Assembly (NCBI GenBank): GCA_029167045.1
Contig: JARFPK010000003.1
Location: 1 to 64,000 of the forward strand
Direction of reading: 5' to 3'
DNA from: Candidatus Methanocrinis natronophilus
GTDB taxonomy: Archaea > Halobacteriota > Methanosarcinia > Methanotrichales > Methanotrichaceae
Length of the DNA: 64,000 nt
Made by a program: the position numbers and the translations under genes. Positions 26,827 through 38,575 of this stretch are shown piece by piece. Under the pieces are notes generated by a model, which saw only the letters and a program-made list of their open reading frames with translations, did no database searches and was not told the DNA's origin. Every line of letters starts with the position of its first letter. The stretch's first letter is position 1.

Positions 26827-27864
26827 TCAGCCGGACATTACCCCCAGGACCTTCAGGGGGTGGACCCCCGCTCCCTGGAGGGCGAAGAGCTCGTCTTCGT
26901 CTGCGAGGCTGAACTCCTTGATGGTGGAGACGAAGGTCTCCGGGGAGTCGACGGCGTCCATCAGGATTATATCCTGCTGTAGCCTTGCGGCCCATCTCGG
27001 CCAGCCCTCGGAGTTGCTCATCTCCGTCGCCTTGTCGAAGTCGAAGCCGAGGACGAGGCCGTCACCGGTCTTGGAGGCGGCATCCCACCGGATGAATATC
27101 CCCGCGACCCTGGTGCCGAACTTCTCCGTCAGGGCAGACGTCTCGTCTGCTGTCAGCTTTTTGACGAAGAGGCCGCCCTTTCCGGGGGTGCAGTCCCAGG
27201 CCACCTGGAAGTAGTCGTCTTTGCACCAGTTGGGGCAGGCTATCACCCTGTAGCTGTGGTTTGTCGCGTCTTCAATGGGGAGCTCTTTCTCCATATATCT
27301 CGCCAAGAGCAAGCCGCTGGAGACCCCGGGGCAGAGGTGGTCGTGGAGCTCCACCGCCTTCATGAATATATAGGGGGTCTTCTCGTGGGCCCAGACGTTG
27401 ACGACGGGGAGCATGTGGTCGAAGACCCCGGGCTTCCAGCCTTCGACGTCGGCGAGGACCGTCTCGGCGTCGATCTTATCCATCTCCTGGACGGCGAAGC
27501 CGTTCCCGTCATCGTTCACCTTCATGTAGACCGCCTCACCGGTATTCTTGTCGTAGAACCCAAACCATAGGGGCTTCCAGGGGGGGCTCAAGATGTTGAG
27601 GAGGTTTCCCTTTCCCGGAGTGCAGCCGGTGGCCTCCATCACCGCATCGAGGCATTCTTCCGTCGTCTGGCCGTCTATCACGGCGTATCCGGCGTTGGTC
27701 AGGGCCAGAACATCGGCGTCGCCCCGCTCAAATCCCATCTCTGCCATGGCGTACTCTGCGGCGTCGGAGCCGAGCTGGTACATATCCACCCCTTCTGCCA
27801 TGGCCAGACCCGGCGCCAGGGCCAGGAGGAGGAGGGTCGTCGCTATAATTCGATCGATCTTCAC
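26827..27864 (-). CDS. Secreted FmdE-domain protein
   Basis: 345 residues. The N-terminus (MKIDRIIATTLLLLALAPGLAMA) is a clear signal peptide, so the protein is exported. The central part has MKAVELHDHLCPGVSSGLLL, the signature of the FmdE domain (formylmethanofuran dehydrogenase subunit E-like, COG2191). A duplicated motif CTPGKG occurs at about 80 (TGCTPGKGNLL) and 227 (DCTPGKGGLF), with CPNWC in between; these cysteines and histidines could bind metal. Known FmdE proteins are cytoplasmic, and secreted versions occur in some methanogens with unknown role. It has its own promoter region and terminator. Confidence 0.82.
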   Translation of the reverse strand: MKIDRIIATTLLLLALAPGLAMAEGVDMYQLGSDAAEYAMAEMGFERGDADVLALTNAGYAVIDGQTTEECLDAVMEATGCTPGKGNLLNILSPPWKPLWFGFYDKNTGEAVYMKVNDDGNGFAVQEMDKIDAETVLADVEGWKPGVFDHMLPVVNVWAHEKTPYIFMKAVELHDHLCPGVSSGLLLARYMEKELPIEDATNHSYRVIACPNWCKDDYFQVAWDCTPGKGGLFVKKLTADETSALTEKFGTRVAGIFIRWDAASKTGDGLVLGFDFDKATEMSNSEGWPRWAARLQQDIILMDAVDSPETFVSTIKEFSLADEDELFALQGAGVHPLKVLGVMSG

Positions 27865-28363
27865 ATAATCACCTGATTTTCAATACCTTACGCCTGCAAT
27901 ATTCTAATTTATGCTACGCAAGCCGGAAAGAGTTCTACTCAATTATTTATAACATTTTTGGTCGAAATTCATAATAATCAATACTTTGTCCAGAATAGCT
28001 CATATTAATTGATGACCTGCTCTGGAGAATATGGCAGAAGAAGGGCGCCGTTTTTGGCTTGGCTTTGCCCCAGATACGGCGCCCGTGGTTGGAGAGAGGG
28101 CAATGGCCTTTAGGGGGATGCCATCTCAAGGAGGTCGCAGCATGGCGAGAGTATTGCACCCCAACGGGGAGATAATCTTAATTAGTAATAAATCTTTTGG
28201 TTAAATTCATACAAGGTCGGATCCTACCGATGGGAGTCCCAGTTTCATCTCTCTCGAAGCCGTATCTCGATATCTCGCCGATTTCCTATACAAATCAGAT
28301 CATCCGCAATACAATGGCGGCGTTTGAAGAAGAGGCGTGCTATCTCTCACGGGGGTTCCAGGG
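27865..28363. other. AT-rich intergenic region with a strong hairpin, possible small RNA
   Basis: About 500 bases. The first 150 are AT-rich and carry the FmdE promoter. GGGCGCCGT (28043-28051) pairs perfectly with ACGGCGCCC (28076-28084) across a 24-base loop, far more stable than expected by chance here. The conserved-looking purine-rich stretch to 28160 holds no convincing protein. A structured RNA is possible. Confidence 0.35.
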
Positions 28364-28572
28364 ATGACCATGGCGATAGAGACTATCGGGCTGATCAATA
28401 CCTACAACGGACGGACGAGGGCCCTGGACGGGGTGGACCTGCAGGTCCGTCCTGGGGAGGTCTTCGCCTTTCTGGGACCGAGCGGCTCGGGGAAGACGAC
28501 CCTGATGAGATCCTGACAACCCAGTCTCGGCCGACCTCAGGGGAGGCCTGGGCCTTCGGCCTCGCCCCCGGC
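28364..28572 (+). pseudogene. ABC transporter ATPase, N-terminal fragment with frameshift
   Basis: An ATG at 28364 opens an ABC ATPase ([22 protein letters not shown]...) with a complete Walker [10 protein letters not shown]. The frame stops at TGA 28514-28516 directly after TTLMRS. Shifting by one base restores the expected [17 protein letters not shown] segment, so one base is missing near 28508. Homology ends at about 28572, where the sequence switches to MMP12. The Q-loop, signature motif and Walker B are absent, so it cannot work. These ABC ATPases are of the DrrA/CcmA-like group, judged by the TSGEAW motif. Confidence 0.8.
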
Positions 28573-28986
28573 CTCCTGCACGGGCCCCTGGACGTCGCGG
28601 CGATCCGAAAAGTCGATGCCGGGAAGATGACCGCCAACGAGGCCTTCACCCGGGGCGGGATCCTCCGAAAGCGGGGCCTCACCCTCAAGGGCTGCACGGA
28701 AGAAGAGAAGGAGGCGGCCTTCGAATCCCTCGCCCTATACGCCGCCATGGAGATATCCGCCATGGCCGTTCTCCTGCGGGACTGCGGCGCAGCCAAATCG
28801 GCGCTCTATCTGGCGGGCGACCCCGCCCCCCGGATCGCGGGGAGGGTCTCGCGGCTTCCGGGGCGCGAGGTTCTGCCGCTCGCAACCTGCGATGCAGCCG
28901 TGGGGTGCGCCCTGATTGCGGAGGATGTGAATGGCGGGGCGAGGGAGGTTCTGGGGATCGGGGTGGATGGGAGGGTGTGGGGGTAG
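28573..28986 (+). pseudogene. Methanogenesis marker protein 12 (UPF0285), C-terminal half
   Basis: From about APGLLHGPLDVAAIRKVDAG the frame reads as the second half of methanogenesis marker 12, an Hsp70/actin-fold protein: KMTANEAFTRGGI, TLALYAAMEISAM-type segment (LALYAAMEISAMAVLLRD), LYLAGDP and AAVGCALIAEDVNGGAREVL up to the natural end. The first half with its nucleotide-binding motifs is missing, replaced by an ABC ATPase piece. I infer a deletion or recombination that joined two genes. A complete copy should exist elsewhere if the gene matters. Family recognition is from memory. Confidence 0.65.
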
Positions 28987-29017
28987 TGGAGCCACGTAAC
29001 TTAACTGGCGAAATCTT

Positions 29018-29040
29018 GGCGTTTATGGAGAAAAACGCTA
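29018..29040. repeat. Left palindrome, candidate attachment site of the island
   Basis: GGCGTTTATGGAGAAAAACGCT carries inverted arms GCGTTT and AAACGC. It matches the palindrome at the recombinase start (36843-36878: GCGTTTTATGGTAAAAACGC) except for small changes in the spacer. The pair brackets about 7.8 kb of accessory genes. Confidence 0.45.
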
Positions 29041-29294
29041 AATTTTAGACTGTTAAGAATCGATAACATCATCAATAGCGGGGAGATAACCAGCAGCTTG
29101 TCTGCGTGTCAGGTTTTGTTCGTACCAATTCAACGGAATGCAGACACGACCTATTCATCTTAGATCGTCTTCTTTGATCGGAGAATTTGGAAGGCTTTGG
29201 GCAGTCTTAGTCCCGGATCATCGACCAAAAAGCTATAATCTTCCCCAGAGTCACAATTTTCCTCAATGGCTGACGGCCGAGAAGGGAGCGGATC

Positions 29295-30263
29295 ATGAAC
29301 GATCTAAGGCTGAGCTCATCGGAGAAGCTCCAATCGGTCTTTATACTCCTCAGCATAGGGTTCGGGCTGGGTATCAGCCGCTTTCCCCAGATAGCCCAGC
29401 ATGGGGGGGCTGCGATACTTCCTGCCCTGATGCTGATGCTTTACATCATATTCCTGCAGATGCCCCTGGAGCGGTTGGGCCGGGGGTTTGCCAATCTAAA
29501 GGTGGCGGGGCTCAGCCTGACGGTCAATTTCTTATTCACCCCCTTCTTCGCTTTTGGGCTGGGTTATCTCTTCTTGAGGAGTTCTCCGGACCTATGGGTC
29601 GGCTTCTTCATGCTCATGCTAACACCCTGTACAGACTGGTATCTCGTCTTCACCAGCATGGCGAAGGGGGACGTGGGGCTCGGAGCGTCTCTATTGCCCT
29701 GGAACCTCTTTCTGCAGCTGGCGCTGTTGCCCCTATATCTGGCTCTCCTCGCAGGATATGTCGTTCCTATAGACGTCCTTCTCCTGGGAAAGAGCGTGGT
29801 TCTAGTCGTTGTGCTTCCCCTGGGGACCGCGTACTCGACCCGGATCATCCTGACGAGGGCGAAGAGCGGCGAGTTCTTCAGGGAGGTATTCCTCGCCAAA
29901 GTGGGAGGCCTCCACTTCCCGTTCCTATTGGTCGCCATAACGGGGATGTTCGTATCTCAGGGGCAGGCGGTCGCTGATAATCCCTTTGTTATGGCCAACC
30001 TTTTGGCCCCCATCATGATTTTCTTCACAACTATTTATATAATAAGCCAAATCGTGGCGAAGCTCTTCGGGTTCACATATCCCGAGATGGCATCTTTCAC
30101 CTGTACCACCATCGCCCGAAACTCGCCGCTGGCGCTGGCGATCGCTGTGACCGCCTTCCCCGACCAGCCTCTGATAGCTCTGACCCTGGTCATAGGACCT
30201 CTGATAGAGCTGCCGGTTCTGATTGTGATCACAAGATTGCTTCTGAAAAGAAGAAAATGTTAA
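29295..30263 (+). CDS. Acr3-like arsenite efflux / bile acid symporter family permease
   Basis: 322 residues with ten hydrophobic helices. LTPCTDWYLVFTSMAKGDVG contains the PCT motif with the conserved cysteine and the following (A/T)KGD of the Acr3 branch of the BART superfamily. FPEMA-like and TIARNSPLALAIAVTAFPDQ match the second inverted-repeat half (N-rich helix) of the family. Acr3 exports arsenite; members with this divergence may carry other anions, so the substrate is only likely. No ArsR, ArsC or ArsA gene adjoins it. It lies just inside the left palindrome, as cargo of the putative island. Confidence 0.75.
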   Translation: MNDLRLSSSEKLQSVFILLSIGFGLGISRFPQIAQHGGAAILPALMLMLYIIFLQMPLERLGRGFANLKVAGLSLTVNFLFTPFFAFGLGYLFLRSSPDLWVGFFMLMLTPCTDWYLVFTSMAKGDVGLGASLLPWNLFLQLALLPLYLALLAGYVVPIDVLLLGKSVVLVVVLPLGTAYSTRIILTRAKSGEFFREVFLAKVGGLHFPFLLVAITGMFVSQGQAVADNPFVMANLLAPIMIFFTTIYIISQIVAKLFGFTYPEMASFTCTTIARNSPLALAIAVTAFPDQPLIALTLVIGPLIELPVLIVITRLLLKRRKC

Positions 30264-30768
30264 TTCGCCATCATCAGCCCCCTGATGGCCGATAGGCAAT
30301 AGACCTCCGCTTTTCGGCGAGGACGACAGGCGTCGGAGACGGGCTTGGGGTCTGCGTAGACCTTGGTGGAGAGATGGATCAAATCAACTGGGGGAGAAAG
30401 AGCGGCAAGAACGGCAGAAGCGGTTAGCAGGGCAAGGCCGCCATCAGCTCAGATGCAGATCCGAGTCGTCAACTCCCAGGCCGAGATAGCCACTGTGGAT
30501 CCAGAGGAGAGGGTGGTCTATCTGGCTATCCATCCTGTCGCCCTTTGAGCGAGCCGAAAAGTGACACCGCATCTTCTCCAGTTCCTTCGTGGAGTATGAG
30601 GGCGAGATGGCTCCAATCCCCCAGCCGGACCCTCTCTTTGTCGCAATCGTGATGCAATTTAAAAAAGTGAATGACGGCTTGCATGCCATACAACTCGGCA
30701 GATACATGGAATTGTAGCCCCATCCTCGGAAGGCTGCAGCATCCAGGGGGGGGTAAGCGGGCTGATCG
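30264..30768. other. Intergenic region between convergent units, no supported gene
   Basis: About 500 bases between the Acr3-like gene and the end of the flippase-like gene. Open frames of 60-90 codons exist on both strands, but none has a recognisable sequence or start signal. It may contain debris of a former gene. Confidence 0.4.
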
Positions 30769-31785
30769 TCAGGCAGACGGAACCCGAGCCAGCGACCTCC
30801 GAACGAGCAGCAGTGTTACGGCTGCGGAGATCAGGAGCGGGATCCAGAAGGTGACGACGCGTGCCATGATTGCTATCGAGAATGCTTCGGGCAGTATCAG
30901 CCCACCGGAGACGAGGACCAGCACCATGCTCCCTTCGAAGGTGAGGAGGCCGCCCGGCAGGAGTGGGATCATGCTGACAAGATATGCCGTATAGGTGGCA
31001 ATGATGACTAACATCAGGCTGATCTCGTATCCGAGCATGGCGGCGACCAGGTAAACCTTCACCGGATAGAAGGCCCAGACAATGAACCCCAGGAGGAAGA
31101 GGTATGCCCCGTTATGAGGATTGGTGATGAGGGTCCTGGAGGTCGCGGATGCATCGCTCAGGAATGCATGTGCAGCCGCCAATTTTCCGAGGATTTTTAC
31201 CGAGATCGGGTGGTGGTGGGGGGTCCCGATCTTCCGCACCGCCTGAACGAGGCGCCCTCCGCGGACGCGGTGGAGAGAGAAGAAAAGGCCTATCAGGCAG
31301 ATGATGATGGCAAGCCCGAGAAACGCCGCATACACGACCGGAGGCAGGGTGACGAATAACAGGGCAGACCCAAGAGTGAGCAGGCTGATGATCAGAAACG
31401 GAAGCAGAGAGTAGAATTTACTGACGATCATGATCGACGTCAGATCCTGATAGGACAGCGAGCTCTCCCTGCGCATCAGGTATATCTTCATAGTCTCGCC
31501 GCCGATCTTTGCGGACGGAGTGACGCTCTCGACAAAGACCCCGGCCATGTTGATCAGGAATACGTTGAAGATCGATACCGCGGCGGTCTTCTGCTTCAGA
31601 AGGAAGAACCAGATGTAGGAGGTAAGAAATATTGTGAACAGCTGCAGTGCGGTCAGCAGAGCGAGCTCTAACGGGGTTATCCTGCCGAGAATGCGGCTTA
31701 TGTCGTCCAAGCCGATGATTACGGCGGCGATCGTTATCAGGAGCGCCCCAGCCCCCAGAAGCGGTCCGCGTTTCATCGCCTGCAC
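30769..31785 (-). CDS. Flippase-like integral membrane protein (LPG synthase TM region, UPF0104)
   Basis: 338 residues with about eight helices. INMAGVFVESVTPSAKIGGE and MIPLLPGGLLTFEGSMVLVL are the two family motifs (P-x-K-x-GGE and P-GG-x-x-x-E) of PF03706. Family members flip or transfer lipid-linked groups, and some act as transporters; function is rarely known. It is the last gene of a minus-strand set with FeoB, 72 bases downstream of it. Codon use and sequence style agree with the neighbouring Feo genes. A role in export of a product made by the upstream enzymes is possible but speculative. Confidence 0.75.
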   Translation of the reverse strand: MQAMKRGPLLGAGALLITIAAVIIGLDDISRILGRITPLELALLTALQLFTIFLTSYIWFFLLKQKTAAVSIFNVFLINMAGVFVESVTPSAKIGGETMKIYLMRRESSLSYQDLTSIMIVSKFYSLLPFLIISLLTLGSALLFVTLPPVVYAAFLGLAIIICLIGLFFSLHRVRGGRLVQAVRKIGTPHHHPISVKILGKLAAAHAFLSDASATSRTLITNPHNGAYLFLLGFIVWAFYPVKVYLVAAMLGYEISLMLVIIATYTAYLVSMIPLLPGGLLTFEGSMVLVLVSGGLILPEAFSIAIMARVVTFWIPLLISAAVTLLLVRRSLARVPSA

Positions 31786-31857
31786 CAGAGCATTGCCGGT
31801 TCATAACGCCAGACCGGAGATGGCTGGATCCATGGGTGGGAAACGAGGAATGCCACC

Positions 31858-33594
31858 TCACATCACCCCGAGCAGGATGCCGGCCTGGGCGATCAGGCCG
31901 CCCATGATGAAGGCAAAGGCTGTCGTGACCGCCAGCGTCAGAATCGCGTAATATCCGCCGAACTCCCGGTATAAGATGGCCATCATAGCTATGCAGGGGA
32001 CGTAGTAGAGCGCAACGACCGACCCGACCACGAGCTGTAGCACCGAGAGGTTCATATCCAGGAGGGGAAGCACCGTCAGCTCTCTTCGGAACACTCCGAG
32101 GAGGAGCGGCACAGCAGCCTCTTGGGGGAGGTGAAGCCACTCCGTGACGAGCGGGCTCATGAACGCCCCGATCCGGGCCATCCAGCCCGTCTCGAAGAGT
32201 GTTGCAGCCACAGCCACCCCGACGATGACCGGAGGCACTGCATCGACTATATAGTGCTGCGTCCGGATCCACATCTTTTTCGCGATCATGTGAGCACGGG
32301 GGACCAGGAGATCGGGGATCTCCATCACCATCGGCACACGCCTGCCCGGCAGGATGCGGTTCAGCACCGCGCCGCCGAGCAGCAGCGAGGCAAACGAGAG
32401 GAACATGACGAAGGCGAGGGCAAAGGCTGATTGCGCCGCCAGCAGGGATATGAAGGCGCCCGTCTGGGCGATACAGGGAATGCTCAGGGATGCCATCAGC
32501 CCCACCATCAGGCGGTTTTTCCGGGAAGGCAGGGTTCGTGTGGATATGATCGCCGGTATCCCGCATCCGTACCCCAGCAGCAGCGGTATGATCGAGGGCC
32601 CCGAAAGCCCGATCTTGCCCAGAAGTCCGTCGAGCAGAACCCCCAGCCGGGGGAGGTATCCGGAATCCTCAAGAATACAGAGCGCCAGATAGAACGAGAA
32701 CACATACGGCATGATCAGCGTGAACGGCCACTCGATTCCCTTGGTGAGGAACCCATACTCACCGACGAGGATGTTCCGGAAGAGCCCGGGCGCAACAAGA
32801 CCGTCTACCTCGGAGACGATCAGCGGGATGATGTAACCCTGAAACACCGGGAGGAGTACGAATCGGCGAAGCCCCATTCCCAGGCCGAGCACGATCGAAA
32901 AGACCGCAAGCATCACCACGATGGCGATAAGGATCCCGGGCCAGGGGCGCATCGATGCATCGCCTATGGTCTCCCGTATGCTTGCCGATGCCCTGCCGGA
33001 GCCATGAACCGCTGCCGCACGAATCCTCTCGGCGCATTCCCAGGAGGCTTCGACGATTCCCGAAGGCACCGGCGTGAGATCTCCATTAAGCACATCCCCG
33101 ATGGCAGCTCTCAGCCCGTACATGCCGTCCCCGTCAAGAGCCACGGCGGTCAGCACGGGAACTCCGAGCTCCCGTGACAGCGCCTCACCGTCAAGGAGGA
33201 GCCCTTTCTCCTCCAGGAGATCCATGCGATTCACCGTGACGATCGTGGGAAGCCGGCACTCCAGGATCTGAAGGGCGAGATAGATGCTGGACTCGAGGTT
33301 TGAGGCATCAAGGACACAGACGACGAGATCGGGCTTACCCTTGAGCATGGCCACCGCGACCTCCTCGGCATCATTGGTGGCGTCGAGAGTGTATGTCCCG
33401 GGCGTGTCGATGATCGTTGCCTTGACACCGCCGAAAACAGCACTTCCTTTGGTATAATCGACGGTCGTCCCGGGATAATTCGCCATTCCCACGTGGAGAC
33501 CGCTTAGGTGGTTAAAAATGACGCTTTTGCCTACGTTCGGCGGGCCGATGAGCAGTATCAGGCTCTCCTGTTCGCGCCTGGACAATTCAGCCAC
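31858..33594 (-). CDS. feoB: Ferrous iron transporter FeoB
   Basis: 578 residues, short for FeoB but complete in its main parts. The N-terminal G domain has G1 GPPNVGKS, G2-region YPGTTVDYTKG, G3 DTPGTY and G4 NRMD (usual NKxD) up to about residue 165. The membrane part from about 225 has two Gate-like blocks: LGYGCGIPAIISTRTLPSRK with IPCIAQTGAFISLL, and LLLGVFRRELTVLP with YYVPCIAMMAIL. FeoB imports Fe2+ across the membrane. It lies 11 bases downstream of a gene ending in a FeoA domain, which normally associates with FeoB in the cytoplasm. The GTPase spacer domain seems reduced. Confidence 0.92.
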   Translation of the reverse strand: MAELSRREQESLILLIGPPNVGKSVIFNHLSGLHVGMANYPGTTVDYTKGSAVFGGVKATIIDTPGTYTLDATNDAEEVAVAMLKGKPDLVVCVLDASNLESSIYLALQILECRLPTIVTVNRMDLLEEKGLLLDGEALSRELGVPVLTAVALDGDGMYGLRAAIGDVLNGDLTPVPSGIVEASWECAERIRAAAVHGSGRASASIRETIGDASMRPWPGILIAIVVMLAVFSIVLGLGMGLRRFVLLPVFQGYIIPLIVSEVDGLVAPGLFRNILVGEYGFLTKGIEWPFTLIMPYVFSFYLALCILEDSGYLPRLGVLLDGLLGKIGLSGPSIIPLLLGYGCGIPAIISTRTLPSRKNRLMVGLMASLSIPCIAQTGAFISLLAAQSAFALAFVMFLSFASLLLGGAVLNRILPGRRVPMVMEIPDLLVPRAHMIAKKMWIRTQHYIVDAVPPVIVGVAVAATLFETGWMARIGAFMSPLVTEWLHLPQEAAVPLLLGVFRRELTVLPLLDMNLSVLQLVVGSVVALYYVPCIAMMAILYREFGGYYAILTLAVTTAFAFIMGGLIAQAGILLGVM

Positions 33595-33605
33595 CCTCCG
33601 GCCAC

Positions 33606-34466
33606 CTATGCAACGAGTATCTCCCTGGCAAACTCCCGTGCCAGGGCTACCCTCCGCCCTTCAACCTCCAATACAAGCGGCCCCCCGAAGGGGTGTCGGC
33701 ATTGGACGGTGACCAGTTTTCCAGGGCGGATTCCCAGGGGCGGGATCACCGGATAATCCGGTACCTGCATAACCCTGGCCGTCTGATCTGCGGCAAGATC
33801 GTCTAAGACATACCCCCCGGTGCTGGTGGCCGTCGGTTGCGACACCTCAATTGAGGAGCACCCCTTCTTGATAAGGACGGCCTCCTTCACCCCATCCGTC
33901 GGTAAGGTCTTATGGCCGGCGTCATGGCCGATATGCCCGGGCAGCACACGCCGGTACAGACTGCCCAGCATCCGCTTCTCCTGCGGGTTGCGGTAGATGA
34001 GCTTTGCGCCGCTGCGCATGCTATCGAGCAGCGAAAAAAGCACCATCTCCTTTGGAGCGACGTTGAGCGAGACCCAGACCGCATCGTAGGATGAAGCGTC
34101 GAGCGATGCCCCCTCTGCGATTTGTATGGTGATATCGGCATCTGTCTCATAATAATCGACAAAGCGCTGCGCCGCGTCTACAGCAACGGGATCGTTGTCC
34201 ACCGCAGTCACAATAAAGCCTTTTTTGGCCAGAAGCAGGGCGGTGAACGGCAGCGATCCGCAGCCTACATGGAGGATCGAACTCCCCACCCTCAGGTCAG
34301 CTAGGGCCAGCTCTTTATCGACCACATCGCCATATAACCACTCGCTGTAGATCAGGGCCAGTCGCGGCCACCGGCTGCCCATATCCTCGATAGTCTTGGT
34401 AAGCCGGGCGATACGGCAGATCGAGCTTCCCTGTTCCGGTACCCGGTACTCGTCCATTTCGTTCAT
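33606..34466 (-). CDS. Nicotianamine-synthase-like methyltransferase-fold protein fused to FeoA
   Basis: 286 residues. Residues about 50-185 form a Rossmann-type SAM-binding domain with VGCGSLPFTALLLAKKGFIV and TAVDNDPVAVDAA; the GxGxxPxTA pattern is that of nicotianamine synthase-like and CntL-like enzymes rather than ordinary methyltransferases. Residues about 218-286 are a FeoA-type SH3-like domain (VMQVPDYPVIPPLGIRPGKL, ending VALAREFAREILV). Such a fusion is unusual and ties a SAM-using metal-ligand-type enzyme to FeoB, whose gene follows 11 bases downstream. The product of the catalytic domain is unknown. Fusion and operon are seen; metallophore function is inference. Confidence 0.72.
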   Translation of the reverse strand: MNEMDEYRVPEQGSSICRIARLTKTIEDMGSRWPRLALIYSEWLYGDVVDKELALADLRVGSSILHVGCGSLPFTALLLAKKGFIVTAVDNDPVAVDAAQRFVDYYETDADITIQIAEGASLDASSYDAVWVSLNVAPKEMVLFSLLDSMRSGAKLIYRNPQEKRMLGSLYRRVLPGHIGHDAGHKTLPTDGVKEAVLIKKGCSSIEVSQPTATSTGGYVLDDLAADQTARVMQVPDYPVIPPLGIRPGKLVTVQCRHPFGGPLVLEVEGRRVALAREFAREILVA

Positions 34467-34469
34467 ACC

Positions 34470-35039
34470 TCACCCCTGAGCCGCTGCCTGATAGAGGAGG
34501 GAGCGGTCGAATGTCGCCATGCTCTGCCGGATCGCAGCGTCGTGCAGGAGAGTATCGGGCAGCGAATCGTACCGGTCTTTGAAGGAGGGGCTCGGTGCCC
34601 GAAAGATCAACGGGGTCCGCGATCCGCAGCGTTCCTGCAGTTTCTTAAAGATCTCATATTTAGGTTCGGCCTGGAGCGCCACTATCGCTGCATCGAAGTC
34701 TTCCGGAACGTTTTCAGAGGCATCGCCAAGCTCCACCTCGATCCGGTCCTCAAGGTTCATTCGCCTTATGCAAGCTCTGGCTGACCGTACCACATCCGGA
34801 TCGCGATCAAGAGCCAGAACCCTCGCCTGAGTGAGCCGGGCGATGTGTATTGCGGTAAAAGGGACCGCGCCGCATCCCACGTTCAGCACCCGCTCGCCTG
34901 ACCGTATATTTGCAAGGGATATCTCACGCGCCACCACCTCGCGGTAGGGGAATGCATACATCTCTGAAAGGACTGTACTCCTGCTGGCAATCTTCTCGAA
35001 TGCAGCCGTAAATCTGGCAAATATTGAGTGGAATGTCAT
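34470..35039 (-). CDS. Nicotianamine-synthase-like protein (first gene of the Feo operon)
   Basis: 189 residues from the ATG starting MTFHSIFARF, preceded by GGGAG; an in-frame TTG six codons upstream is less likely. It carries VGCGAVPFTAIHIARLTQAR and LALDRDPDVVRSARACIRR, the same GxGxxPxTA SAM-binding pattern as its downstream neighbour, and ends with PLIFRAPSPSF where NAS-like enzymes have a conserved R-containing strand. It stops 3 bases before the start of the FeoA-fused paralogue, so the two are translationally linked. The pair may form a heterodimer or act in sequence. Known NAS enzymes join aminopropyl-type groups of SAM into metal ligands; that reaction is not shown here. Confidence 0.65.
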   Translation of the reverse strand: MTFHSIFARFTAAFEKIASRSTVLSEMYAFPYREVVAREISLANIRSGERVLNVGCGAVPFTAIHIARLTQARVLALDRDPDVVRSARACIRRMNLEDRIEVELGDASENVPEDFDAAIVALQAEPKYEIFKKLQERCGSRTPLIFRAPSPSFKDRYDSLPDTLLHDAAIRQSMATFDRSLLYQAAAQG

Positions 35040-35148
35040 CCGTTTTCTCCCAGCCAATCATCTGAAGCGCACCAATCCACGGCAGCGGTTAGATCGTAAA
35101 CCTGCATGTGCCCGCTTCCCGGGCGAAATGCTCGGTGCCGTGGGCCTG

Positions 35149-35226
35149 CCGACAGGAATCGAACCTATCCTGTAAGGTGAGCTCAGATCCGGCCGATCAC
35201 CCGGGCGCTACCGATCTGTGCCGCTT
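35149..35226 (-). other. tRNA-like sequence or degenerate tRNA
   Basis: On the minus strand a D-arm-like GGCACAGATCGGTAGCGCC is followed after 34 bases by a T-arm-like ATAGGTTCGATTCCTGT and an acceptor-like CGGCAGG. The 5' acceptor strand does not pair and no anticodon arm of normal size can be drawn. A related D-arm sequence recurs at about 36263-36288. It may be a tRNA remnant left by an integrative element just upstream of the Feo operon. Confidence 0.3.
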
Positions 35227-35239
35227 CTCTGGCCATACC

Positions 35240-36013
35240 ATGAGCTTACGAGGTGTTTCGCTGTATCGGATCGAGTCGCTCCTACCGGTTCACCGATTAT
35301 ACATCTATTGTTAGATTCAAATATATGTAACCCTAAGAGGATTCGGATTGTTCAAAAGAGCCGAATATATTTAGGCTTCCTGGAAGAAACCGAAATTCTG
35401 GGTGTGATTGGCATGTGTTTTCGCGGGCCTTTCCCGCAGTGAAAAAGGTCTACAGCCCCGGATGCGATCCGCCGCTCGATGCACATGCGGTTGTGGTTTC
35501 CGTCCCTGTCTAATCTGCCGGTCTTCATCTACTGAGGCAGGTGTCCACGCGCTCAAAAATGGATTAAATTAGAACCTTTGAAACCGGCAACACTACTCCG
35601 GGCAGCAGCTTCGCCGGGAGGTGGTCGCGATTCGGCTCACCCGTTGAAGTGGTGCCGTTCATAGGTCTGGAGGATGAACCCATGCTTCCGGTGCCTGCTC
35701 CCTCAGAGCGGCGGCCGCAGGTACCCGATCTCCGGGGTATGGAGGGCCGGGCAGAATGGGCAAAGGGCGGAATCGACATCTTCTGCCTTCTCACGGACCA
35801 AACAGCAGTACACCCCGCCGCTCTCCCGGACCTCGTCCCCGCTGGGAAACGGCATCCTGGCTGGTTGGGTGGGGAGCCCCTGGACGAGCATGCAGAACCC
35901 GGTGAGGAGGAACTTCAGGAACCAGAGCCGTACGTGCTCCTCATGGTCCCACCCACACTCCGAACTGGGCCGGGGAGACCATCGAGGCACTTGGGACGAA
36001 TCGTACACTCATC
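35240..36013. other. Region without a supported gene
   Basis: About 770 bases upstream of the Feo operon. Part is AT-rich (35290-35400) and could hold a promoter; the rest has overlapping open frames on both strands with no recognisable product. It probably contains decayed genes of the island. Confidence 0.35.
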
Positions 36014-36304
36014 ATGCTTGGCGAGGATTTCCACAGATACATCTTTCGGAGAGGTGACCTGGACTTCTACAAGGCCCATGTTGATCAACCGAGGATCTTA
36101 GAGGTATCCCTAAAAGACGTGCGTAAGGCGTTTACTGGTAGCATGAAAGGCGAGATCCGTCTATTCGACAAAAACTTCCACGAGATAGCCAGGGTTTCAG
36201 CTGACAACCCAGGGGATGACGTAGTCCTCAAGCAGGATATATCAACACTTGGATGGTACCACCTACCCGGCGCTACCGGTCTGTGCCGCGAGTACGCGAC
36301 ATAG
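36014..36304 (+). pseudogene. Fragment of a secreted protein with a PPC-like domain
   Basis: 96 codons. DLDFYKAHVDQPRILEVSLK, GEIRLFDKNFHEIARVSADN and PGDDVVLKQDIS follow the pattern of bacterial pre-peptidase C-terminal (PPC) domains found in secreted proteins. There is no signal peptide or further domain, and the last dozen residues are read from the tRNA-like D-arm sequence at 36263-36288, so the natural end is lost. I read it as a truncated remnant, though a short expressed protein cannot be excluded. Confidence 0.5.
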
Positions 36305-36375
36305 ATCGAGGCTCATGGAATGAACCGTACACAATCCTGACGATAGTAAAAATATAGACTGGTTCACTATCTGGT

Positions 36376-36456
36376 TTGATCAAATCGAGAGACGAGGATG
36401 GTGAGACCCGATCGGTGTCGATGGAACCGCTGGAGAAGATCCGGGCGAGGCGGTGA
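36376..36456 (+). pseudogene. C-terminal tail of a lost HEAT-repeat protein
   Basis: The frame reads LIKSRDEDGETRSVSMEP and LEKIRARR before TGA at 36454-36456. This corresponds to the last HEAT repeat and tail of the protein encoded at 41368-43116 (KDEDGEVRS-type repeat, EALAKIQMGR end). The stop codon and following terminator hairpin plus CTATTTTTATT are also shared. No upstream HEAT repeats remain, so it is a relic of a paralogue. Confidence 0.5.
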
Positions 36457-36482
36457 TCCTCGCCTCCCTCTATTTTTATTTT
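36444..36482 (+). terminator. Hairpin and T-tract terminator after the HEAT relic
   Basis: GGCGAGG (36444-36450) pairs with CCTCGCC (36458-36464), followed by CTCTATTTTTATTTT. The stop codon of the relic lies in the loop. The same arrangement follows the intact HEAT gene at 43109-43139. Confidence 0.65.
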
Positions 36483-36490
36483 AACCAATA

Positions 36491-36510
36491 CCCTGCAGCG
36501 TGCTGCGGGG
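36491..36510. repeat. Hairpin CCCTGCAG-CTGCGGGG
   Basis: An 8-bp stem (one T-G pair) with a CGTG loop. A similar hairpin, CCCCGCA with TGCGGGG, occurs at 52059-52078 beside another truncated gene. Both may derive from mobile-element ends or be a dispersed terminator-like repeat. Confidence 0.4.
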
Positions 36511-36842
36511 TGCGCCGCCGCAATTTGACTTTAAAACCGTTTAATCGACCTTTCCGAGGCAGTTCGACATCGTCTTACCGTCAGCGATCTGGCCAAGAGG
36601 CGTATTGTCACACTCCGACCTGCTTAATGCTGGGGCTCTGGATACCCGAAATCGACTGGCCCACGGCGCTTGAAACTCCTTCAGCCTAAAATTCCTCACA
36701 AGTTCTCATTTTTACGACTTTTGACTTATCGCCTCAATCATCCGATCTAATATGATACAGTCCGGCATGGCTCAACCGGAAATCAGCATCAAGCACTGCC
36801 TTCAAGCGCGATGCAAATTCTAAGATTAGCCCTCAACTTCCT
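36511..36842. other. Region without a supported gene
   Basis: About 330 bases before the recombinase. It has mixed base composition with no open frame of recognisable sequence. It may hold the recombinase promoter and remnants of the island end. Confidence 0.35.
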
Positions 36843-36878
36843 AAAAGTTAGCGTTTTATGGTAAAAACGCTAACTTTT
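36843..36878. repeat. Right palindrome overlapping the recombinase start, candidate attachment site
   Basis: AAAAGTTAGCGTTTT (36843-36857) and AAAACGCTAACTTTT (36864-36878) are perfect 15-bp inverted arms with a 6-base spacer ATGGTA. The ATG of the recombinase is in the spacer. It may be a recombination core or an autoregulatory site, and it resembles the palindrome at 29018-29040. Confidence 0.6.
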
Positions 36879-37481
36879 AATAAGTTCCACGCCCCCTCAT
36901 CCCCCGTGGTTCCCAAGCTCATCACCCCCACCGAGTTCAAAGCCCTCGTCGACTCCCTCGAGGGCCGGGACCGGCTCATCATCAAGCTCCTGGCGGGCAC
37001 GGGGATGCGGATATCGGAGCTGACCCGCTTGAAGAAGTCCGACCTGGACCTCGACGACAGGCTCATCCGGCCCCAGGCTCACAAAACGAAGACCCGGAAG
37101 TACCGGGACGTCGTGATACCGGCGCCCCTGGTCCCCGAGCTGAAGAGGTGGGTGAAGTCCTTCGACCACTCCGATTACGTCTTCCCCGGCCAGGGTATCT
37201 CCGCCCCCATGACATCCTCGAGGGTGAGGCAGATCGTCCACGAGGGGGCGGTGGAGGCCGGCGTCCAGAGGGCTTACGGGCGCGATAAGGACGGCAAGCC
37301 CCTCTACGTGGTAACCCCGCACACCCTGAGGCATTTTCATGCGGTCAGGGCCCTTGACCTCGGCATCCCTCTCAATGACCTCCAGGCCCAGCTCGGCCAC
37401 ACCGACCTGAAGACGACCTCGGTCTATCTCAAGGCCGACATCAACCACCGGCGGAAGAGCTACGAGGGTTTCGAGATCTGA
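36858..37481 (+). CDS. Tyrosine recombinase (XerC/D-type catalytic domain)
   Basis: 207 residues. All catalytic positions are visible: Arg in GTGMRISELTRLKK, Lys in the KTKTRKYRDV turn, HTLRHFHA (His and second Arg), LGH and the nucleophile Tyr in TTSVYLKAD. The usual N-terminal core-binding (SAM-like) domain is almost absent, so this is a minimal recombinase or one shortened by the palindrome at its start. An upstream start was looked for and not found. It probably moved the segment to its left. The gene converges with GH15, 23 bases between stop codons. Confidence 0.88.
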   Translation: MVKTLTFNKFHAPSSPVVPKLITPTEFKALVDSLEGRDRLIIKLLAGTGMRISELTRLKKSDLDLDDRLIRPQAHKTKTRKYRDVVIPAPLVPELKRWVKSFDHSDYVFPGQGISAPMTSSRVRQIVHEGAVEAGVQRAYGRDKDGKPLYVVTPHTLRHFHAVRALDLGIPLNDLQAQLGHTDLKTTSVYLKADINHRRKSYEGFEI

Positions 37482-37504
37482 AGAATGGCTTTGACGAGGA
37501 CACT

Positions 37505-38575
37505 TCATTTGTGCCTTAAAAAACTGGAGGCTATAACGAACATTGCGTGAGACCAGAGCAATGGCGAGACCGAAACTTGAATATCGTTGTCGAATATCTG
37601 CTCCGGAAGGTGCCTGCCTGACCTTTCAAAAACCCAGTCGAAATACTTTCTTGCTCTCGTGGCATCGCCCCTCTGGGCCCAGTATATCGAGAGCCAGAAG
37701 TTGAGGATCGGCCAGGCTCCAGCTCCTTTTTTTCGGTGCATCCCCTCGAACATCCAGCCATCGTATTCGTCATGCTCGTAGCGGTGCACCCCACCATCGA
37801 CGACGAGGCATCTTTCGATCTCCTCGACTGTAGAGGTGATTCGGGGGTCATTGGGCTCGCAGATCGCAAATGGATAGACAAGGCCCAAGACCGAAGCATC
37901 GATACGTCGGTCGATCAGCTTCCCGTATGAACGAACAAAATGGCCATCTATGAAGTGCTTGTCAAGTCTCGATCTCATCTCTTCAGCTACTTCTCGCCAC
38001 TTTTCAGACTCTTTGGGTATCATTTCACTTGCGCACTCGAGCCCTCTTATGCAAGCGGCAAGAGAGTATGTGAAGTTCTCTGCAAGATCCGGAAAGGCCA
38101 ACCTCTCCTCCCAGAGGTCGGTTGCCACAAGATCGAAGCATTTTCCGTTCCAGGAGCGTGCAAGCCCTTCGGCTCCTTTTTTGATGAGGTCTTCGAATTC
38201 CATGGCATCTTCAAGGTTGTCTTGATAATGGTGCCATAGGGCGAAAAGGACAGATCCCGTCTGATCGGGCTGGAACCCGTTATGAGCCTTGAGCCCATTT
38301 ACGTAATACTTTCCAAAAAAAAGTCCTGTGTCGTAGAAACTTTCGGCCCTCTTGAGGCACCAATTAAAAATATTTTCCTGTATGTTTTGAAGCCCCAATA
38401 TGTCAGAAGCGATTGATACGTACGAGCAGTCCCTGGGCCAAACATAAAAGTAATTTTTGGCTTCCATAGGATAATAGTCCTTGAATGCGTTGGCGGCGAC
38501 AATCGCTCCATTTTCCAGGCACCCGTCTGCGATTACTTCTGCTGAAATATCTAATAAATTCTTAATCTGAAGCAT
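37505..38575 (-). CDS. Glycoside hydrolase family 15 (glucoamylase-like) protein
   Basis: 356 residues. AKNYFYVWPRDCSYVSIASD, DLWEER (general acid Glu), GVHRYEHDEYDGW and HLPEQIFDN (second Glu region) are hallmarks of the GH15 (alpha/alpha)6 barrel. No signal peptide is present, so it would act in the cytoplasm on alpha-glucans or trehalose-like sugars. Many archaeal glucoamylases have an extra N-terminal beta-domain; it is missing here, so only the catalytic barrel is present. It begins 21 bases after the TPR gene on the same strand. The base composition is lower in G+C than the window average, as for TPR, which suggests transfer. Confidence 0.85.
   Translation of the reverse strand: MLQIKNLLDISAEVIADGCLENGAIVAANAFKDYYPMEAKNYFYVWPRDCSYVSIASDILGLQNIQENIFNWCLKRAESFYDTGLFFGKYYVNGLKAHNGFQPDQTGSVLFALWHHYQDNLEDAMEFEDLIKKGAEGLARSWNGKCFDLVATDLWEERLAFPDLAENFTYSLAACIRGLECASEMIPKESEKWREVAEEMRSRLDKHFIDGHFVRSYGKLIDRRIDASVLGLVYPFAICEPNDPRITSTVEEIERCLVVDGGVHRYEHDEYDGWMFEGMHRKKGAGAWPILNFWLSIYWAQRGDATRARKYFDWVFERSGRHLPEQIFDNDIQVSVSPLLWSHAMFVIASSFLRHK

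Follow-up and report, generated by a model that had tools for sequence, protein, structure and literature searches.

Relatives of the genes described here are known from separate systems. The archaeal thermonicotianamine synthase MtNAS (PDB 3fpe, 3fpg, 3fpj, 3o31; Pfam family NAS, for nicotianamine synthase, PF03059) combines a Rossmann core with a GxGxxPxT motif, a catalytic glutamate (Glu81) and an aligned tyrosine (Tyr107); in CntL, staphylopine and opine systems, aminobutyrate-transferase relatives have metal importers and exporters as neighbours. Anaerobes take up ferrous iron mainly through FeoB, which is usually described as acting without a metallophore; MprF makes lysyl-phosphatidylglycerol and flips it outward. 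In a 64,000-nucleotide stretch of Candidatus Methanocrinis natronophilus (contig JARFPK010000003.1, positions 1 to 64,000; hereafter the window), part of an assembly of 2,412,901 bases in 100 contigs, we find an operon that brings such relatives together: a short NAS-like enzyme (NAS1), a second such enzyme carrying a C-terminal FeoA domain (NAS2::FeoA), a FeoB, and a flippase-like protein that has the LPG_synthase_TM domain also present in MprF. The reading we favour, with modest confidence, is that the operon serves acquisition of a metal, most likely Fe2+, through synthesis of a nicotianamine-type ligand, its outward transfer by the flippase, and uptake by a dedicated FeoB.

The four genes are open and read in the same direction on the minus strand, with intergenic gaps of 3, 11 and 72 bases (Table 1), and a GxGxxPxTA motif appears as GCGAVPFTA and GCGSLPFTA in the two enzymes. 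Re-reading of the open reading frames (ORFs) shows that the initial annotation of this DNA was right about the gene order, gaps, coordinates and motif, and its assignment of a C-terminal FeoA domain to the second enzyme, with FeoB next, agrees with the profile scores. An alignment of fusions places the beginning of the FeoA domain near residue 220, and the FeoB has the Pfam domains FeoB_N, Gate and FeoB_C. The operon is more than a chance arrangement, because the same genes are found together in two distant phyla.

Both enzymes resemble NAS more closely than ordinary methyltransferases. In sequence searches of the PDB, MtNAS ranks first for NAS1 (E about 1e-12, vs 1.5e-5 for CntL and 3.2e-5 for protein-isoaspartate methyltransferase) and for NAS2 (2.3e-6 to 3e-6, vs 5e-5 for CntL). 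For an AlphaFold model of NAS1 (predicted local distance difference test score, pLDDT, 86.1) the best Foldseek match is again MtNAS, and VIA-align gives Z scores of 21.2, 20.7 and 20.5 for MtNAS, 18.3 for CntL and 17.7 for the best methyltransferase; the 50 matches listed for each fold search are all enzymes dependent on S-adenosylmethionine (SAM), of NAS, CntL or methyltransferase kinds. Residue 81 of MtNAS, a Glu in 3fpe that is replaced by Gln in 3fpg and 3o31 (E81Q in the structure titles), aligns with E21 of NAS1 through a long NAS from our survey, and Tyr107 aligns with Y38 (both in 195-residue numbering). Neither this Glu nor this Tyr varies in 10 NAS1, in 5 NAS2::FeoA (E27 and Y45) or in an alignment of 43 short NAS (2 from the window and 41 from Bacillota, omitting three NAS ORFs of loci L127 and L158 and the NAS of L142). 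Across these 43, the Pfam family matched by most is NAS (39 members, E at most 0.01), ahead of Methyltransf_25 (33) and PCMT (26).

These results bear on an alternative in which the enzymes are methyltransferases, or modifiers of protein or RNA (for example of FeoB itself), and the linkage to FeoB is regulatory. We regard this as improbable. It is consistent with the class I SAM fold, with the scores of NAS1, which lies below the Pfam NAS cut-off (17.9 vs 27.1 bits) and exceeds the Pfam cut-offs of Methyltransf_31, Methyltransf_25, PrmA, PCMT and MTS, and with the model of NAS2, which is weak (pLDDT 70.8) and for which MtNAS is the top match (Z 17.8) but is tied with a tRNA methyltransferase (17.6). 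Against it stand the predominance of NAS among the Pfam matches, the invariance of the NAS catalytic Glu, and the first rank of MtNAS by sequence for both enzymes and by fold for NAS1. Among the NCBIfam matches listed (25 of 60 matched families), no profile exceeds its cut-off for either enzyme (for NAS1, PCMT 40.5 vs 188 and PrmA 27.3 vs 269), and the CntL profile NF033601 is far below its cut-off for both (35.3 and 19.9 vs 350). The profile comparison proposed in the initial annotation thus gives a divided answer: NAS2 exceeds the Pfam NAS cut-off, but NAS1 exceeds generic methyltransferase cut-offs instead, and neither enzyme reaches that of CntL. Azetidine-2-carboxylate synthases (AzeJ, VioH), described as methyltransferase-like in part of a published account (PMC11794875), were considered as a nearer family and rejected, AzeJ being a weak PDB match (8ryd, E 0.054).

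The enzymes also differ from described NAS in length. The median number of residues ahead of the catalytic Glu is 12 in the 43 short NAS vs 80 in MtNAS; the short forms are without about 60-70 N-terminal residues and so lack the greater part of the N-terminal helical domain, and we therefore call them short NAS-like enzymes and not nicotianamine synthases. In a tree of 100 NAS sequences, 63 short sequences stand apart from 37 long ones (support 100/100), and 11 second copies form a NAS2 clade (support 100/94) that a single branch splits off from all other rows in 100% of 200 bootstrap trees. In a wider quick tree of 113 rows, the five opine-type (CntL) rows group together (99), as do the long rows (98); the 69 short rows share a branch with support 91, under the 95 mark, vs 100/100 in the first tree, which had no opine rows; and the NAS2 clade comprises 12 rows (96), taking in that of L162 (genome G1144), previously labelled plain short. 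We conclude that the enzymes form a branch of shortened proteins, distinct from long NAS and from CntL-type rows. The kinship with NAS and CntL proposed at the outset, as against common methyltransferases, finds support in sequence, in the fold of NAS1 and in gene context, with the correction that the branch is one of its own. Long NAS occur in other settings: in L168 (240-4691, G953) genes of a cobalt/nickel-type importer (CbiM, CbiQ and an ABC ATPase) are near a long NAS (95 bits) but on the opposite strand, and tandem long-NAS pairs are found in L037 (4724-7919, G006), L038 and L039, from the family and class to which the host belongs, the pair of G006 adjoining DsrE and DsrH family genes.

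The gene context was assessed by mapping 59 short-NAS loci (13 archaeal and 46 from Bacillota) found in a genome survey with a profile of short NAS, counting a flippase as linked at 60 bits or more within 2.5 kb and a FeoB within 4 kb. A flippase is linked in 48 of the 59 (10 archaeal, 38 Bacillota), a FeoB in 48 (9 archaeal, 39 Bacillota), and both in 44 (7 archaeal, 37 Bacillota). The linkage to feoB is thus not unique to this strain, the outcome that a genome survey had been suggested to decide. Genomes contain few copies of the flippase family (1 to 3 matches in each of 18 genomes, a single match in 6), so that chance adjacency should be rare. As a control, we examined 29 feoB loci whose genomes gave no short-NAS match, and 0 of the 29 has a flippase of at least 60 bits within 4 kb; one, L243, has a flippase-like match of 37 bits. 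At 23 of these loci at least 2.5 kb is available on both sides and at 6 less than 2.5 kb on one side, and in four the FeoB is in two ORFs; the set supersedes an earlier control of 30 loci with flanks of at most 1.5 kb, one of which is not a FeoB. The commonest form of the module consists of a separate FeoA, a FeoB, one NAS-like gene and the flippase. The NAS-FeoA fusion reported in the initial annotation does recur, in six archaeal loci, but is only one archaeal form of this wider module.

A flippase is missing from the criteria range at 11 loci (archaeal L079, L080 and L100; Bacillota L127, L131, L133, L137, L152, L162, L163 and L166), with a contig edge at L080, L100 and L127. Conversely, the flippase is kept beside NAS1 at four loci where FeoB is absent (L082, L098, L099 and L165). 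This distribution is relevant to a further alternative, in which the NAS-like product stays inside the cell as a carrier that takes Fe2+ from FeoB and the flippase has another role. The fusion of NAS2 to FeoA, generally seen as a cytosolic partner of FeoB, would suit such a carrier, as would the fact that nicotianamine works inside plant cells; but the flippase is linked as often as FeoB, persists with NAS1 in the four loci without FeoB and is fused to NAS in L123, and we consider a purely cytosolic role very improbable. Other off-pattern loci have neighbours of their own: the short NAS of L137 adjoins an MFS protein and genes for metal transport (ZnuA and ABC-3), that of L152 adjoins EamA and SBP_bac_5, that of L162 adjoins DUF4198, and that of L079 (5108-7974, G064) lies near a MacB/FtsX-type permease. 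The neighbours at L137 and L152 indicate that some off-pattern short NAS also lie by metal-transport or export genes.

The FeoBs of the module are themselves distinct. In a quick tree without bootstrap, 46 FeoBs adjacent to short NAS form one clade (Shimodaira-Hasegawa-like approximate likelihood ratio test, SH-aLRT, 99), and 0 of 24 other FeoBs (23 from control loci and the second FeoB of L122) falls inside it. Rows below 200 bits or 450 residues are omitted, which removes 7 of 30 control loci (L189, L191, L192, L193, L199, L201 and L205) as well as short pieces of FeoB from L136 and L158, and the bit score comes from a profile of NAS-linked FeoBs, so that the cut-off favours their kin. Three second FeoBs that are merely within 4 kb of a short NAS lie outside the clade. 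In a tree of flippases the linked copies stand apart from most paralogues shown, and paralogues of G936 and G897 join the second flippase of G940; this tree has long branches, 3 of 11 named paralogue loci have no row in it, and we do not use it as evidence.

Comparison with the described systems sets the module apart from each. Like MtNAS, the short enzymes have the Rossmann core, motif and catalytic residues, but, unlike MtNAS, they are N-terminally truncated, form a separate clade and occur in linkage with feoB and a flippase. Unlike CntL systems, they score far below the CntL profile, with the opine-type rows in a clade of their own outside the short rows, and a hidden Markov model built from four CntM-like survey ORFs finds 0 opine dehydrogenases in the ORFs of the 59 loci, in line with the initial contrast to staphylopine systems. 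This model recovers its 4 training sequences, one of them confirmed as Staph_opine_DH, and an independent Photobacterium locus. Like the Feo system, the operon has a FeoB above the TIGR00437 cut-off and a FeoA domain above that of Pfam; unlike ordinary Feo, its FeoB belongs to the short-NAS-adjacent clade and FeoA is fused to NAS2 in archaea. Unlike MprF, a NAS-type SAM enzyme takes the place of the tRNA-dependent transferase, the two functions are separate genes in all mapped loci with both except L123, and the MprF profile NF033480 (flippase plus lysyl-transferase) is far from reached (23.9 vs 600). We did not find a description of the module among the matches listed in open-licence PMC literature on NAS, FeoA/FeoB, metallophores, archaea and flippases. 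The main text of a Feo survey does not contain the words methyltransferase, flippase or nicotianamine (PMC8749426), that of a survey of iron in methanogens does not contain the word nicotianamine (PMC8351635), and the method of an opine survey, as set out in part of that paper, detects only systems with a CntM homologue (PMC7438024).

Known NAS and CntL products are soluble, and the ligand proposed here could be soluble as well. In a version of the favoured reading that we entertain tentatively, as less likely than not, the acceptor is instead a lipid headgroup, for example a glycerol hydroxyl or the amine of phosphatidylserine or archaetidylserine; the aminobutyrate lipid would be turned outward by the flippase in the manner of MprF, and the membrane-bound ligand would feed FeoB. 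In its more specific form, a membrane-anchored metallophore, aminobutyrate on a phospholipid headgroup would be displayed on the outer leaflet by the MprF-like flippase and Fe2+ would pass within the membrane to the dedicated FeoB; this we hold to be somewhat unlikely. In favour of a lipid, characterised relatives of the flippase domain move lipids (PMC5898192, PMC10128005). A further pointer is locus L123 (G1152, Bacillota), in which a single ORF holds LPG_synthase_TM (residues 9-319) followed by NAS (416-557, 51.6 bits). MprF likewise has the flippase domain first and the amino-acid transferase second (PMC5898192), so that L123 and MprF have in common the order of flippase and amino-acid-type transferase. 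A second MprF-like flippase is proposed, in part of another study, to turn a glycolipid that is also made without that flippase (PMC10128005). Loss of most of the N-terminal domain could, in addition, open the active site. An N-terminal amphipathic helix as membrane anchor was also considered, but the amphipathic moments of the 43 short NAS exceed those of shuffled sequences only modestly (mean z 1.7).

The genes that follow the flippase also touch on the lipid version. In 40 Bacillota loci, with 37 flippase ORFs, a same-strand gene from outside the module follows in 22, and 18 of these 22 encode CDP-alcohol phosphatidyltransferases of pssA type. However, 15 of the 18 genomes with such a neighbour have no other pssA match above 40.3 bits, so that the neighbour is probably a housekeeping gene; only some Bacillota loci have a pssA neighbour, and in archaeal genomes the operon and the pssA matches are at separate places. 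The idea that phosphatidylserine is required as acceptor was rejected, since in 50 genomes chosen for short NAS four have no pssA match and five more have none above 38.2 bits. Modification of a lipid is an open possibility; phosphatidylserine as the sole acceptor is not.

Returning to the favoured reading, we propose that the short NAS-like enzymes would move a 3-amino-3-carboxypropyl (aminobutyrate) group from SAM to an acceptor, NAS1 and NAS2 probably acting in successive steps, to give a nicotianamine-type metal ligand that may be soluble or borne on a lipid headgroup. The LPG_synthase_TM protein would carry this ligand to the outer face of the membrane, where it would be displayed or released, and metal caught outside would be handed to the FeoB, whose clade accompanies these genes; tethering of NAS2 to FeoB by the FeoA domain could tie ligand synthesis to uptake. 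We infer the reaction from the conserved catalytic residues and kin enzymes, export and hand-over from linkage and fusions, and the identity of the metal from FeoB; the acceptor and the direction of transport are likewise part of the proposal. Several observations pull the other way. Besides the methyltransferase-profile scores of NAS1 and the weak, tied model of NAS2, FeoB is generally described as carrying free Fe2+; neither FeoB nor flippase is found in 7 of the 59 loci (L079, L133, L137, L152, L162, L163 and L166), and L131 has two NAS and a FeoB without a flippase; and the characterised relatives of the flippase domain are described as moving lipids and not small ligands (PMC5898192, PMC10128005).

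On our own reading of bit scores, a short-type NAS is present in 9 of 392 genomes of the host's phylum; matches occur in 3 of 33 genomes in the family of G153 and in 4 of 125 in that of G321. In Bacillota, the phylum of a Lysinibacillus locus, 40 of 398 genomes (about 10%) have a match, the count having been 46 before omission of six genomes whose matches were long, weak or broken (G911, G953, G1180, G1183, G1209 and G1221) and which the 59 loci likewise exclude. None was found in 300 genomes of the phylum of a Crenarchaeota metagenome-assembled genome (G545), for which there was no positive control. The NAS2::FeoA fusion was not found in eight other searched genomes of the host's genus (G001-G008), and a plasmid search gave no match for NAS2 and one Photobacterium match, of opine type, for NAS1. 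The closest relatives of the window operon in the NAS and FeoB trees are G153, G222 and G096. Methanocrinis strain Mx is described in part of one report as an obligate alkaliphile from sulfidic soda-lake sediment, in a lake district that has also yielded the cultured haloalkaliphilic methanogens Methanosalsum and Methanocalculus (PMC10598746), and transfer of the operon between soda-lake neighbours is plausible. Archaeal FeoBs sit at several places within the NAS-linked clade, which fits repeated transfer. A 90-residue short-NAS fragment beside FeoA and FeoB in L171 (6657-6929, G1209) has apparently decayed.

The surroundings of the operon in the window contain a Phage_integrase gene about 1.8 kb upstream, possibly the trace of a mobile element, and, just upstream of NAS1, a segment that by eye resembles the T-arm and 3' end of a tRNA, where no tRNA was called (Table 1). 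An integrative element with this segment as attachment site was considered and rejected: with 2 mismatches allowed, the 21-base motif occurs only once in the genome, so that no duplicated site is shown. An Rfam scan of positions 28000-38000 gave no family above its gathering score and two matches at E of about 0.8 below it. Downstream of the operon lie genes for an SBF-family transporter and an FmdE-domain protein.

Table 1. Features of the operon and its surroundings, in window positions
Feature	Position	Strand	Details
Short NAS-like enzyme 1 (NAS1)	34470..35039	-	189 residues from ATG 35039; 195 residues from the mechanical start TTG 35057
NAS2::FeoA fusion	33606..34466	-	286 residues; enzyme 2 with C-terminal FeoA domain
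Pfam NAS match in NAS2::FeoA	33864..34289	-	residues 60-201; 33.1 bits vs cut-off 27.1
Pfam FeoA match in NAS2::FeoA	33612..33737	-	residues 244-285; PF04023, 43.2 bits vs cut-off 23
FeoB, NAS-linked clade	31858..33594	-	578 residues; TIGR00437, 335.1 bits vs cut-off 315.65
Flippase-like LPG_synthase_TM protein	30769..31785	-	338 residues; PF03706, 134 bits vs cut-off 33.4
Phage_integrase gene	36858..37481	+	PF00589, 102 bits
tRNA-like segment	35145..35165	-
SBF-family transporter	29295..30263	+	NCBIfam match ACR3, below cut-off
FmdE-domain protein	26827..27864	-

The initial annotation had proposed that a small metal ligand, or some modification with SAM, is coupled to FeoB uptake, and the comparisons made here support this in part: the linkage recurs, whereas a ligand serving FeoB uptake is a proposal. 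An operon that recurs in methanogens, in other archaea and in about 10% of the sampled Bacillota, and that couples a distinct FeoB to NAS-type enzymes and a lipid-type flippase, suggests ligand-assisted uptake of ferrous iron, and the module looks like an undescribed way of catching iron. Such uptake would suit settings like sulfidic soda lakes, in which little free Fe2+ is expected. The module offers concrete leads: an enzyme, an expected by-product, methylthioadenosine, and places to look, in the medium and in the membrane lipids. If the lipid version is true, nicotianamine-type enzymes in both Bacillota and Archaea would be making a metal ligand that is a lipid.

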